Assembly (NCBI GenBank): GCA_020072845.1
Contig: JAIQGF010000003.1
Span: 62,001 to 126,000 of the forward strand
Reading direction: 5' to 3'
DNA: 64,000 bases
From: Terriglobia bacterium
GTDB lineage: Bacteria > Acidobacteriota > Terriglobia > Terriglobales > Acidobacteriaceae
Positions 40,578-45,794 of the stretch are shown here, in pieces. The notes beneath the pieces were generated by a model, which was given only the letters and a program-made list of their open reading frames with translations, was not told the origin of the DNA and searched no databases. A program made the translations under genes and the position numbers. Numbering within the stretch: the first letter of the stretch is position 1; the number at the start of each line of letters is the position of its first letter.

Positions 40578-43475
40578 ATGAGCGGCTTCGTACCCAATCC
40601 TCGGCAGAAGGAAGCGATCGAGCACGTCCACGGGCCGATGCTGGTCATCGCCGGCGCGGGCACGGGAAAAACCACTGTGCTGGTCGAGCGCATTGCACGC
40701 CTGGTTGCAACCGGCGAAGCCCGCCCGGAAGAAATCCTTGCGGTCACGTACACCGACAAAGCCGCCACCGAACTGGTGGAGAGGCTCGCCGCGCGCGTCG
40801 GCGAGGGCTTGCACGCATGCACCTTTCATTCCTTGTGTTACGGCATTCTGCAGCGGGCGGGGCAGGAATTCCGCCTGCTCGAAGAAAAAGACCTCTGGAT
40901 TCTGCTGAAGCGCCGCCTCCACGAACTCGGCCTCCAGTACTACATCAAGGCAGCGAAACCGCACGAGTTTCTCGACGCGCTGCTGGATTTCTTCAGCCGC
41001 TGCCAGGACGAACTGGTGGACGCGGCGCGCTTCAGCCGGTACGTGGAAGAGCTGCGTGAGGGCCAGCACACGCCGCCGCGGGTGACGAAGTCAAAGAAGT
41101 CCGCCGGCATCACGCCCGCCGAGCACCTGGAGCGCTGCGAGGAGATTGCGCGCGTCTTTGCCCGTGTCGAAGCCATGCTGCGCGAACGGAATCTTGGCAC
41201 CTACGGTGACATGATCACGGGTGCGGTCCGCCTGTTGAGCGCCGATCCGAGCGTGCTGCGCCGCGAACAGCAACGCGCGCGCTTCCTGCTGATTGACGAG
41301 TTCCAGGACGCCAACGTGGCGCAGATCCAAGTGGCGCACCTGCTCGCGGGCGAGGAGCACAACGTATTCGCGGTCGGCGATCCCGACCAGGCGATCTTCC
41401 GTTTCCGCGGCGCCTCCAGCGCCGCCTTCCAGGAATTCCAGCGCCGCTTCCCGGGCACGAAGGCGGTTCCGCTCGACGAAAACCAGCGTTCGACTTCCAA
41501 CATTCTCGCTTGCGCCTTTTCCGTGATCGACGGCAACGCCGCCGTGGACTGCCGGTTACCGGACGGTTCCGAGTATGAGCGCCACGCACTGCGTTCCGCC
41601 CGCGAAGAGCGCGCGGTGGAGGAAGGGAAGCCGCTGACGCCCGCCAGGGTCGAGATCGTTCTGCATGGCGGGAAAGAGGAGGAGGCCGCCGATATCGCCG
41701 CCGAGATCGAAGAACTGCGCAGCTCGGGGCAAGGCGGCGACACTGCAATCGTCTACCGCATGCATTCCCATCGCGAGGAGATGGCCAGGGCTCTGGCGGA
41801 ACGCGGCATACCGTTCGTCGTGAAGGGTCTCGACGTGCTCGAGACCGCCGTGATTCGCGATCTGCTGGCATGCCTGGCCGCGGTAGCGTCGCTGTCGGAT
41901 TCAGAAGCACTCTTCCGCGTCGCCGCCCTGCCCATGTTCGGCGTGGACGGCGATGCCATGCGTGCGGCGCTCGCCGCCGCGTCCCGGGAAGCCTCATTCG
42001 TCTCACTGCTGCCGAGAATTCCCGGCGGCGCGCGCGTGCTCGCGGCGGTGGAAAAGGCGCGGGGTTACGCCGCGTCGGTGAACTGGGAAGCGGCGCCGGT
42101 GTGCGCATTCGCGGTCCGCGCCTTCGGCTTTAGCGAGTCCGACGACCCGGTGCGCATCCTGCGCGAGTTCGTCGAGAAATGGCATACCAGGCCGATCACC
42201 GAATCCGGCTCGCTCGAGGAATTCATCGCCTACGTTGATCTGTTCCGGGAGGCCGGGGGCAAGCTCGAGCTTCCCGTGCCCGCCGCTGAGGGCGCGGTGC
42301 AACTGATGACCGCGCACTCCGCCAAGGGCCTGGAATTCGAGACCGTGTTCGTGCTGCGCGCCAACTCTGGGTCGTTTCCGATGAGCTACAAGGAAGCGGT
42401 CTTCGAATTCCCGCAGGCGCTGCGCGAAATGCCGCTGCCGGACGACAGCAAGCAGATTCACGCCGAAGAAGAGCGGCGCCTGTTCTACGTTGCGCTGACA
42501 CGGGCGCGCGATTCGCTCCGCGTCTATGCGCGTCCGGGAAGAGGCAAGGACACCACGCCCGCCGGCCTGCTCCGCGGCATCATGAGCGGCGCCCGGGCCG
42601 AAGGCTGCTGGCGGCAGCACTCGGCGCGCCCGTTCACCGCCACCATCGAGGCAGGCGCGGCGCCGGCCTCTGGGGTCGCGACCTGGCTCCTGATGAAGCC
42701 GCGGCCCGAAATCGCGCAGCGGGGTTTGAGCGCCACCTCCATCGACGCCTACGACACCTGCCCGATGAAATACAAGCTGATGCAGGACTGGCAAATTCCC
42801 GGCCCAGCCTCCGCTTCGATGCTGTACGGGAAGATCGTGCACGACGTGCTGCGCGACATTCATCAGGCAATCCTCGATGGCCGCGCGCGCACCGAGGGCG
42901 AGGTGCTGCAACGCTTTCGCGAACTCATTGCCGCCGCCGCTTTCGATGACGACTACCAGCGCACGCTCTTCGAACAGCAGGGCGCGCGACAACTAGGCGC
43001 CTACCTCAGCGCTCTCGCCCGGCAGCCCGCGCCGCCCGTCCTGCACGCGGAAAGAGGTTTTCAGATGAAAGTGGGCGGCGTCCCGGTTCGCGGGCGCATG
43101 GATCGCGTGGACCGGCTCGAGGGCAGTGGCGTGCGCGTCATCGATTTCAAGACCGGCTCGGTGTTCGACCAGGACAAGGCCGACAAGAGCCTGCAACTTT
43201 CCATCTATGCCATCGCCGCGCGCGAGACCCTGAACGCCGAACCCGCCGAGTTGGTCATCCACAACCTGGAAGACAACTCCGAGGTGCGCACCGCGCGCGA
43301 TGAAGCAGCGGTGCTAGAGACGCGCGCCAAGATCGCGGAGGTAGCGGAAGGAATCGCCGCGGAACGGTTCGACCCGAAAGCGGGCTTCTGGTGCCGCTGG
43401 TGCGAGTATCGCAACCTGTGTCCGGCGACCGAGCAGAAGTTGTACGTGATTGCGACTGCGGCGGGAGCGGGTTAA
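40578..43475 (+). CDS. UvrD-type helicase fused to a Fe-S PD-(D/E)XK nuclease
   Basis: A 965-residue DNA repair protein. Residues 1 to about 640 are a superfamily 1A helicase: Walker A AGAGTGKTT at 25-33, LIDEFQDAN near 237, GDPDQAIFRFRGA near 266 and motif VI RLFYVALTRARD near 632. Residues from about 715 are an AddB/Cas4-like nuclease: DTCPMKYK with Cys728, the catalytic VIDFKTGS near 855, and a C-terminal CxxCx5C (Cys939, 942, 948). The four cysteines should hold a 4Fe-4S cluster. A single-chain helicase-nuclease for double-strand break processing is inferred. A hairpin terminator follows. Confidence 0.88.
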   Translation: MSGFVPNPRQKEAIEHVHGPMLVIAGAGTGKTTVLVERIARLVATGEARPEEILAVTYTDKAATELVERLAARVGEGLHACTFHSLCYGILQRAGQEFRLLEEKDLWILLKRRLHELGLQYYIKAAKPHEFLDALLDFFSRCQDELVDAARFSRYVEELREGQHTPPRVTKSKKSAGITPAEHLERCEEIARVFARVEAMLRERNLGTYGDMITGAVRLLSADPSVLRREQQRARFLLIDEFQDANVAQIQVAHLLAGEEHNVFAVGDPDQAIFRFRGASSAAFQEFQRRFPGTKAVPLDENQRSTSNILACAFSVIDGNAAVDCRLPDGSEYERHALRSAREERAVEEGKPLTPARVEIVLHGGKEEEAADIAAEIEELRSSGQGGDTAIVYRMHSHREEMARALAERGIPFVVKGLDVLETAVIRDLLACLAAVASLSDSEALFRVAALPMFGVDGDAMRAALAAASREASFVSLLPRIPGGARVLAAVEKARGYAASVNWEAAPVCAFAVRAFGFSESDDPVRILREFVEKWHTRPITESGSLEEFIAYVDLFREAGGKLELPVPAAEGAVQLMTAHSAKGLEFETVFVLRANSGSFPMSYKEAVFEFPQALREMPLPDDSKQIHAEEERRLFYVALTRARDSLRVYARPGRGKDTTPAGLLRGIMSGARAEGCWRQHSARPFTATIEAGAAPASGVATWLLMKPRPEIAQRGLSATSIDAYDTCPMKYKLMQDWQIPGPASASMLYGKIVHDVLRDIHQAILDGRARTEGEVLQRFRELIAAAAFDDDYQRTLFEQQGARQLGAYLSALARQPAPPVLHAERGFQMKVGGVPVRGRMDRVDRLEGSGVRVIDFKTGSVFDQDKADKSLQLSIYAIAARETLNAEPAELVIHNLEDNSEVRTARDEAAVLETRAKIAEVAEGIAAERFDPKAGFWCRWCEYRNLCPATEQKLYVIATAAGAG

Positions 43476-43498
43476 GAAATCGTCCCCCAAAAAACTTA

Positions 43499-43529
43499 GG
43501 GGACGCTTCCCGCGTCCCCCTTGCTTTTT
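43499..43529. terminator. Bidirectional rho-independent terminator
   Basis: The stem GGGGACGC/GCGTCCCC with a five-base loop is followed on the plus strand by TTGCTTTTT. On the minus strand it is followed by TAAGTTTTTT. It can end both the helicase gene and the minus-strand micro-gene. Confidence 0.8.
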
Positions 43530-43541
43530 CAACGTGAAGGC

Positions 43542-43595
43542 TTAGTGCTTCTTCGTTTTCTTTGCAGCCTTCTTGCCACCCTTTTTCGTTGCCAT
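43542..43595 (-). CDS. Micro-gene for a 17-residue lysine-rich peptide
   Basis: The peptide MATKKGGKKAAKKTKKH has eight lysines and resembles a piece of histone H1-like lysine/alanine repeats. It could bind nucleic acid, but I know no named family. Signals support translation. A GGGAG site lies nine bases before the ATG, a sigma-70 promoter (TTGACT-N17-TATACA) lies 62 bases before it, and a hairpin with a T-run lies 13 bases after the stop. It is divergent from nothing and stands alone between the helicase and the CPBP protease. Alternatively the transcript is a small RNA and the frame is incidental. Confidence 0.6.
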   Translation of the reverse strand: MATKKGGKKAAKKTKKH

Positions 43596-43656
43596 GGTTC
43601 TATTCTCCCTTCCATTGTTCATGGTTCGCAACGATGTTCCGTTGCAATTGCTTGAA

Positions 43657-43685
43657 TGTATAGAGTCATTCAAAATCGAAGTCAA
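43657..43685 (-). promoter_or_regulatory. Sigma-70 promoter of the lysine-rich micro-gene
   Basis: On the minus strand TTGACT (43685-43680) and TATACA (43662-43657) are separated by exactly 17 bases. The predicted leader is about 55 bases and includes the ribosome site. Confidence 0.7.
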
Positions 43686-43767
43686 GCAAAAAATCCACGG
43701 AACCAGAGAACACACGCGCGCCGGTGAAGAAATTTCGCGCGCCCTCGCAAAAAAATCGCGAGCCCAC

Positions 43768-44520
43768 TCACTTCAGTAACCGGAAGGCGATGCCGCTGAC
43801 AGAATCCTGCAGCGTGTGCTGGATCATCCCCGGCCGCAGGCTCTTGCGCCATGCCGCCAGCATGCCGAAAAGCGCGCCGTAGACGGCGATCAGGATGATG
43901 CGGCGCCCGCCCTGGTAGGCGTGCGCGATGCCGAAGATCACCGCCTGAAGAACGATGGCCGCCGCGGTGCTGCGCGTCGCCGCGAGGAATTGTTTCTGCA
44001 GGTATCCACGGAACATGATCTCCTCGCAGAACCCGGCGGTAGCACTGAGCAGGATCCATATTCCCAATTCCAGTCCGCTGCGCGGCAGCAGCGGGCCGAG
44101 TTGTTTTCTTGCTTCCGCCACTTGCGAGGGCGACGCCAGCCCGAGTGCGAACGACAATCCCGCCAGCCCGGCCGCGGCGACTACCCAGAATCCACACGCG
44201 ACCGCCACATCGAGCAGGAAGTTTTTCGGCGACTTCCATCTGCCGCCGACAATTTCCCGCAGCCTGACACCCCTCTTGCGTGCACCCCACAGGATGAATC
44301 CCACCAGCAGGTACTCCCATGCCAGCGTGAGCAGATAGACGGTGACGCGCCCGCGATGCGCGATCATCTCCCCTTGCGTTCGGGCGGTGACGGCCGCAAA
44401 CACCATGACCACCGCGACGAACAGCGCCGTGTGCCAGGCGGGCGCCACCAGCGCCGGCGGTGTCGCTGCGGGCGGCTCGGTCGGTGAAGTTTCCGGTGCG
44501 ACAGGCGGGTTGGTGGACAA
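43768..44520 (-). CDS. CPBP-family intramembrane protease
   Basis: A 250-residue membrane protein with about seven hydrophobic helices after a proline-rich N terminus. The family motifs are [12 protein letters not shown] near residue 166 (EExxxR) and, further on, [10 protein letters not shown] (motif 2, FxxxH). Such Abi/CaaX-like glutamic proteases process membrane peptides or prenylated proteins in some hosts. The target here is unknown. TTG at 44520 is chosen because GGGAGG stands five bases upstream. It is divergent from the thiolase gene. Confidence 0.85.
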
Positions 44521-44603: not shown

Positions 44604-45794
44604 ATGCCTAGCGCAGACGATGTGGTGATCATCGCCGGAGTTCGCACTCCGATCGGAAAATTCCAGGGTTCGCTCGCCGATTTGTCAGCTCCCAAACTGG
44701 GCGCGATCGTGGTACGCGAAGTGGTCAAGCGCGCCAATCTCGATCCTGCCTCCGTGGACGAATGCATCATGGGCAACGTCGTCTCTGCCGGGCTGGGACA
44801 GAACCCGGCGCGCCAGGCGGCGATTTATGGCGGACTGGCGCCCTCGGTCAGCGCCATGACCATCAACAAGGTTTGCGGATCGGGACTGAAGTCGGTCGCG
44901 CTCGGGGCGCAGGCCATCCAGACCGGCAACAGCGACATCGTGGTGGCCGGCGGCATGGAGTCCATGACCAACGCGCCCTACCTGCTGCCCAACGCGCGCA
45001 AGGGCTTCCGCCTCGGCAATGTCACCATGCTCGACTCCATGATCTGCGACGGCCTGTGGGACATCTACAACGACTACCACATGGGCAATACCGGCGAGAA
45101 CGTGGCCGAGAAATATCACATCTCACGCGAGGAGCAGGACGAGTTCGCGGTCAACTCGCATCGCAGGGCGGTGGCGGCGATCAAGGAGTGCCGCTTCCAA
45201 TCGCAGACCGTCCCCGTCGAAGTGCCCGGTAAGAAGAAAGGCGAGACCGTGCTTTTCGAAAAGGACGAAGGCCCGCGCGAGGACACCACCGCCGAAGCGC
45301 TGCGCGCGCTCAAGCCCGCCTTCAAGAAGGATGGCACCGTGACCGCCGGCAACGCGCCCAGCGTCAACGACGGCGCGGCAGCCGTGGTGGTCACCAGCGC
45401 GAAAACGGCGGAGCGGCTCGGGGCCAAGCCGATGGCGCGCATCGTGGCGCAGGCCACCAGCGGCCTCGACCCCAAGTGGGTGATGATGGCGCCGGTGGAT
45501 GCCGTCCGCCTGCTTTGGAAAAAGACCGGCTGGAACAAGGACGAAGTTGGCCTGTACGAGATCAACGAAGCGTTCTCCGTGGCTGCCATCGCAGTCACCC
45601 GCGAACTCGGCCTGAACCTGGACAAGGTGAACGTGAACGGCGGCGCGGTCGCGCTGGGGCATCCCATCGGGGCCAGCGGCGCGCGCATCCTGGTCACCCT
45701 GCTGTACGAGATGATCCGCCGCGACGTGAAGAAGGGAATCGCCGCGCTCTGTTTGGGCGGCGGCAACGCCGTCGGTGTGGCGATCGAGCGATAA
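44604..45794 (+). CDS. Acetyl-CoA C-acetyltransferase (thiolase)
   Basis: A 396-residue thiolase that condenses two acetyl-CoA or cleaves 3-ketoacyl-CoA. The nucleophilic Cys is in [11 protein letters not shown] near residue 90, the catalytic His in [11 protein letters not shown] near 352, and the second Cys in CLGGGNAVG near 382. Length and motifs fit AtoB/PhaA-type enzymes. The ATG at 44604 follows AGGAG at an eight-base distance. No other fatty-acid or PHA genes are adjacent, so the pathway direction is open. Confidence 0.92.

Follow-up and report, generated by a model that had tools for sequence, protein, structure and literature searches.

The window, a stretch of 64,000 nucleotides, carries on its minus strand an open reading frame of 17 codons plus TAA (43542..43595; ATG at 43595-43593, TAA at 43544-43542), and the frame is conserved at the codon level. 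A sequence-only reading had proposed a 17-residue lysine-rich micro-gene here, preceded by GGGAG nine bases before the ATG and by a TTGACT-N17-TATACA promoter. Although that reading gave no strand, each of these elements was found on the minus strand. The encoded peptide is MATKKGGKKAAKKTKKH, the GGGAG lies at 43609-43605 within the Shine-Dalgarno block AAGGGAGAATA (43601..43611), and the -35 element TTGACT (43680..43685) is separated by 17 bases from the -10 element TATACA (43657..43662). Scanning and folding also located an intrinsic terminator, with a stem GGGGACGC..GCGTCCCC at 43498..43520 and a T run at 43494-43489. The presence of a hairpin terminator was therefore as predicted, but its predicted distance of 13 bases from the stop can be reconciled with the fold only by counting the outer A/U stem as well, since the GC stem begins ~21 bases past the stop. 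Upstream and in the same direction is a CPBP (Rce1-like) protease gene (43768..44520, minus strand; PF02517, E 1.7e-19), followed by a divergent thiolase gene (44610-45794). Downstream and convergent is a plus-strand gene for a UvrD helicase fused to a PD-(D/E)XK nuclease (40578..43475; PF00580, PF13361, PF12705). When both strands of the 64 kb window were scanned for K/R-rich ORFs of 8-60 codons preceded by a Shine-Dalgarno sequence, the micro-gene was the sole match; the same scan of 833,135 bases from 117 loci gave 5 other matches, none of which reached a lysine content of at least 45%. It is conservation in relatives that places the micro-gene far beyond chance. An in-frame ATG further upstream (27 bases 5' in the window) was considered as the start and rejected; because such upstream starts vary in position and sequence among relatives, the conserved ATG following the ribosome site was adopted.

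To a DNA search with the 241-base region (E <= 0.01), 41 of 61 genomes responded: 35/37 from the window's own family (f1, own genome included), 4/14 from the sister family f2 and 2/10 from others of the class. At least two of the matches, in G034 and G055, were other lysine-rich proteins. Thirty of the matching loci were read fully and the remainder partly, and all 30 (L002-L031, own included) contain a lysine-rich ORF of 12-30 codons starting no more than 15 bases from GGGAGAA, with one mismatch allowed. The sequence GGGAGAATA is present in 28 of the 30. These loci, together with 84 found by pattern and 21 found by model, make up a set of 135 distinct complete members; to be included, a member needed a promoter match, five or more lysines and a sequence close to AGGGAGAA. 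The pattern behind the 84 fixed codons 2, 4 and 5. In this set AGGGAGAATA occurs in 132/135, a count to be read knowing that 84 of these members were fetched with that pattern and that all were located via a near match to AGGGAGAA.

The promoter is conserved too. TTGAC is the same in all 29 rows of alignment A3, which is without L028, and TTGAC..TATA is present in 30/30 loci that had not been chosen for it; the spacer measures 17 in 128 of the 135 members, which had themselves been selected partly for having a promoter match. An automatic promoter scan of the window reported none at the micro-gene, because its rule requires a T as the final -10 base. Searching the window for TTGAC-N18-TATAC with up to one mismatch gave a single match, at the micro-gene and with 0 mismatches; since 0.60 matches are expected by chance and 43/100 shuffles hold at least one, the pattern taken alone is weak evidence.

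Between promoter and ribosome site the leader forms two stems that covary. In hairpin 1 (UGCAAC..GUUGCG; 43627..43646, minus strand), 95.3% of cells are paired and 6/7 pairs are changed on both sides; in hairpin 2 (CCAU..AUGG; 43612..43624, minus strand), which lies directly 5' of the ribosome site and is missing from some members, the values are 87.3% and 4/4. Together, 92.7% of cells are paired and 10 of 11 pairs show both-side changes, a count matched by 1/500 shuffles and obtained from an alignment (A4) that was fitted to the model and retains two probably spurious opposite-strand rows (L012 and L021). The covariation score was 0.407, whereas shuffles gave 0.159 (sd 0.011) and sliding no more than 0.066, and a 171-nt stretch folded better than all 200 of its shuffles (z -4.86). 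The fold also suggested a switch in which leader GUUGC would pair with the GCAAC of codons 2-3. We rejected this candidate, since the leader stem is altered in several members (L026, L028, L029 and L030) without a matching change in codons 2-3. At the other end of the unit, the terminator was recognised in 124/135 members (pattern with one mismatch allowed per arm). Its arms are GGGGACGC/GCGTCCCC in 98 members and the changes in others mostly preserve pairing, as in GGGAACGC/GCGTTCCC and GGGGATGC/GCATCCCC, whereas the loops are variable, with 63 types among the 124 members. In its own genome the GGGGACGC-N5-GCGTCCCC stem is found once in exact form, and at 6 places when up to two mismatches are allowed. 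Comparison of relatives shows that, in Acidobacteriaceae-type Terriglobia (family by record titles), the whole set of promoter, leader hairpins, terminator and ribosome site is conserved along with the micro-gene.

Sampling with a covariance model of the leader pointed to the same group, as the model matched 36 of 396 genomes of the phylum, once in each, and all 36 were among the 44 f1 genomes sampled. The 8 f1 genomes without a match all belong to genera g32 and g52. No micro-ORF was found near rsmE in these 8, in two further g52 genomes or in two g251 genomes, which is no proof of absence, because G624 has the gene elsewhere (L248) and none near rsmE. Genomes of g32 and g52 encode proteins of 79-131 aa with an N-terminal MATKK or MATTKK lysine repeat and a DUF6496-like end (L249, L250, L252-L254, L256, L261 and L262; PF20106 was confirmed for one, L252), possibly a fusion or a substitute for the micro-gene. 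In a search with the start pattern, 63 of 80 contigs among the matches listed had Acidobacteria-type titles (Acidobacteriaceae, Terriglobales, Sulfotelmatobacter, Terracidiphilus and others). The remaining listed contigs held no short lysine-rich ORF, the exceptions being L040 and L101, with proteins of 141-149 aa, and L072, where the frame is cut short by the contig end. Further micro-ORFs rich in lysine, differing from the micro-gene in ribosome site and terminator, were also observed (L194 in G013:C130, L193 in G035, L224 and L259), for example MATKKKAAKKAAKKKKH, at a second place in G013, and MAAKKKGKKKKR; we regard these as paralogues or independent copies.

Gene order was compared over 152 loci, in which some genomes were fetched twice and many flanks are short, so that misses are not absences. 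The thiolase gene is upstream and divergent in 101/152 and the CPBP gene upstream in 55/152, while downstream the helicase-nuclease gene lies on the opposite strand in 66/152 and rsmE, for a 16S methyltransferase, on the same strand in 49/152 and the opposite strand in 23/152. As a separate observation, the divergent neighbour of the micro-gene is a thiolase gene, and PhaF, whose tail is H1-like, is believed to act as a tether of PHA granules (PMC9239181).

Whether the frame is coding was addressed by comparing codons along minimum spanning trees (not a true phylogeny) of same-length groups of the 135 members, with 117 edges; L085, whose frame extends past the contig end, was left out. Among the findings that would tell against the gene, the sequence-only reading had named beforehand a frame not conserved in relatives and substitutions at equal rates in all codon positions. 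The frame is conserved, and changes at positions 1, 2 and 3 numbered 149, 113 and 490. Among codons with a single change, 377/424 were synonymous and 47 non-synonymous, where the expected synonymous share is 0.206-0.295 for transition biases of 1 to 8. Since part of the set had been found by a pattern fixing early codons, the test was repeated without codons 1-5; again 294/338 changes were synonymous, and from codon 6 onward synonymous exceeded non-synonymous changes in the BLAST-found (57 vs. 8), pattern-found (142 vs. 25) and model-found (52 vs. 3) members alike. In the remaining two sense frames only 53/359 (53 vs. 306) and 14/362 (14 vs. 348) were synonymous. One antisense frame is rich in silent changes (239/362), a weaker signal than that of the sense frame (294/338), and in this register the third codon positions lie opposite those of the sense frame. 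When members with identical peptides are grouped, variation in the six largest groups is confined to third positions. Of the three sense frames, the micro-gene's own is therefore the only one in which selection on the amino-acid sequence is seen. Moreover, ORF length changes by whole codons, from 12 to 30, while leader length and stop-to-terminator distance cover all three remainders modulo 3. By these comparisons, the micro-gene is a real protein-coding gene under protein-type selection. That the frame is a chance ORF within a conserved non-coding RNA might be argued from its A-richness and its mere 17 codons; both the restriction of purifying selection to one sense frame and the in-frame length changes contradict this, and short of an error in the codon comparisons we consider it refuted.

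After the initial Met, the 135 peptides use only K (1309), A (735), T (171), P (66), H (55), S (33), G (28) and V (14), and acidic, large hydrophobic, aromatic and arginine residues are absent from all of them. Lysine makes up 43-67% of residues, or 7-15 per peptide. In the window's family the peptides are built of KK-A/T/P units, about half lysine, with MATKKKAKKKKKH and MATKKAAKKAPAKKAAKKAAKKK as typical forms and MATKKAAKKAVKKAAKKPAKKAAKKTAKKK as a 30-aa form; a 32-aa f1 form found later (L196) ends in arginine. The histone H1-like lysine composition remarked on in the sequence-only reading holds throughout the 135 members, in that each is a lysine/alanine-rich repeat tail free of acidic residues. 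Neither the 30-aa form nor a 23-aa f2 form matched Pfam or NCBIfam, whose models are ill-suited to such short low-complexity peptides, and the 17-aa form of the window falls under the 20-residue limit of the model search. In all, the observation of the sequence-only reading was confirmed and its interpretation partly supported.

Beyond the window's family, seven families of the class (f2, f3, f5, f7, f10, f96 and f99) have similar peptides, 9-26 aa long. Forms with a ribosome site include MATKKPAKKAAKKPAAKKTSKKK and its kin (L185-L188) and MAAKKKAAKKTAKKKK (L257) in f2, MAKKPAKKAAKKKK (L228) in f3, and forms of 9-13 aa such as MAAKKKAKKKKR and MPKKKKKKR in f5. Six f5 loci (L218-L220 and L225-L227) differ in their leader hairpin, and the terminator in most of them is of the CGGGGATGC type, whereas L224 carries a different terminator and L221 ends at the contig edge. 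A pattern search matched 83/299 genomes, versus 2 genomes with a control pattern. Of 12 places examined in these 83 genomes, 9 contain micro-ORFs rich in lysine, all but one of them in f5 and the ninth in f3, and 3 are unrelated sequences (L222, L223 and L229). A further pattern search matched 17/39 genomes, many of the matches being longer, different proteins. A route independent of the peptide, through the nuclease domain, led to 22 places in 18 of 39 chosen genomes. At 6 of the 22, a lysine-rich micro-ORF is convergent to the nuclease gene at a distance of 82-791 bases (one in f96, two in f7, one in f99 and two in f10); two of these genomes (G511 and G447) were already known from this further pattern search and four (G055, G574, G058 and G450) were new. 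The 22 loci held seven K-rich ORFs, and the arginine-rich L277 was set aside as background. One f5 locus, L225, has a nuclease match in the same convergent arrangement, and in G053 and G459 the micro-ORF is convergent to the nuclease gene ~1.6 kb away on the same contig. With the patterns used, and few genomes for each family, the micro-gene was not seen in f4, f6, f8, f9, f11 or f97 (one f6 match was left unread). In our reading, the cases across the class represent a single old gene; for such short low-complexity peptides homology is argued from gene order and architecture and not from sequence alone.

Several other lysine-rich or pattern-matching sequences were encountered. In L246 (G447:C53, 1512-2366), from another family of the class, five related lysine-rich ORFs of 41-43 aa (MKSKKQNKKAAKS..., with ends like NHNETLVR) form a tandem array, and a ribosome site precedes each. 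A phage origin of the micro-gene was also considered and set aside on searches of IMG/VR and PLSDB. Matches to the start pattern in IMG/VR (20 contigs) gave 20 other, longer ORFs of 61-416 aa, and PLSDB plasmids gave no match at the sensitivity used. Among the IMG/VR sequences are mutually related ORFs of 72-74 aa (MARKK..IDL.., with an acidic end; L198-L201, L204, L205, L207, L210 and L214-L217) that share the AAGGGAGAATAA start signal and are unrelated to the micro-gene.

The explanation we favor, with moderate confidence, is that this is a real free-standing small-protein gene whose product is a polycation most likely acting by charge on polyanions. The main rival, which we consider unlikely, is a lineage-specific ribosomal or ribosome-assembly micro-protein seated in an rRNA pocket like mycobacterial bL37. 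According to PMC5876184, bL37 is a previously unidentified, very short protein (24 aa) of mycobacterial ribosomes that was recognised only once the ribosome structure was solved, and like the micro-peptide it is small and restricted to one bacterial lineage. The single leader-model match per matching genome and the presence of rsmE near 72/152 loci would also suit a ribosomal role. However, bL37 has a helix and a loop in a defined rRNA pocket, while the micro-peptides are low-complexity repeats of variable length. A range of 12-30 residues within one family and no fixed core are unlike a peptide filling one pocket, and the lack of aromatic residues and arginine in all 135 members also argues against it. 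Somewhat less probable again is a dual-function RNA, in which the ~160-nt transcript would be regulatory as well as peptide-encoding. The sequence-only reading had thought this conceivable, and the two covarying leader stems lend it some support, as does its own terminator, the stem of which is strongly conserved and, in exact form, found nowhere else in the genome. The variability of the terminator loops, however, speaks against it, no Rfam family matched at the gathering cut-off across the window (below the cut-off, 43400-43800 gave only two implausible matches, far under it), and mRNA stability and termination can account for the structures. Nevertheless, the conserved leader suggests a control or RNA role that simple charge leaves unexplained.

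A short lysine-rich ORF followed by a terminator also recalls an attenuator leader peptide, whose lysine codons would control a downstream gene, and rsmE does lie downstream on the same strand in 49/152 loci. Leaders of the peTrpL type, peTrpL itself being an attenuator leader peptide that also acts in trans, likewise consist of a tiny ORF and then a terminator (PMC7298713). Unlike them, the micro-gene is without an attenuated downstream operon; in the window the gene beyond the terminator faces it. Since this helicase-nuclease gene is convergent in the window and in 66/152 loci, there is no same-strand gene there to attenuate, and the occurrence of terminators in both downstream arrangements also counts against attenuation. 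We know of no link between rsmE and lysine supply. Attenuation is accordingly a very improbable explanation.

The nearest precedents for a charge-acting polycation are the AlgP tail, the PhaF tail and chlamydial Hc2. According to PMC9239181, the AlgP tail has an H1-like composition and KPAA peptides bind DNA, and according to PMC2848022, Hc2 varies by lysine-rich pentamers. As far as these sources go, all three share with the micro-peptide disordered repeats rich in lysine, alanine and proline and variable in number. However, AlgP (352 aa) also has an N-terminal domain for which a helical structure is predicted, and Hc2 is 165-237 aa long, whereas in the window's family the tail-like part, at 12-30 aa, would be the whole protein. 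With no model match and no body domain, we do not claim membership of these families for it. The micro-gene has the signals of an independent transcription unit (promoter, structured leader, ribosome site and terminator), and the peptide may be made from it in quantity, in many copies. The peptide would be disordered and free, a counter-ion resembling a histone H1 tail, and, at 12-30 residues in the window's family, would bind DNA, rRNA or mRNA, or polyphosphate by charge. Composition, tolerance of length and strong-looking expression signals all point to such polyanion binding. Nucleic-acid binding may reasonably be inferred from composition, which does not decide between DNA, RNA and polyphosphate.

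More tentatively, and with rather more doubt than belief, we propose that several families of Terriglobia share old proteins of 9-32 aa that would be either body-less, free H1 tails expressed from a structured leader, a genetically encoded polyamine substitute condensing DNA, RNA or polyphosphate, or an undiscovered component of the ribosome. To our knowledge, peptides of this size may rank among the shortest conserved bacterial proteins. A literature search that covered only a minority of subscription papers returned no paper on this peptide family, and the string MATKKAAKK was absent from the papers it covered; nor do the terms "histone", "lysine-rich" or "small protein" appear in the body of an omics study of Granulicella sp. 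WH15. Genes of this kind readily escape notice, because genome databases have applied minimum length cut-offs (PMC11796252) and trypsin would fragment a lysine-dense peptide in proteomics. Predictions in the GMSC catalogue begin at 30 nucleotides (PMC11364881), and the catalogue may already contain members as unnamed entries. The comparison shows that a bacterial group can retain genes as small as 12-30 codons, and in a related family probably 9-13 codons, together with a full set of expression signals, and a polycation this simple would offer a direct test of whether charge alone, in the form of a peptide, can shape the bacterial nucleoid or ribosome.
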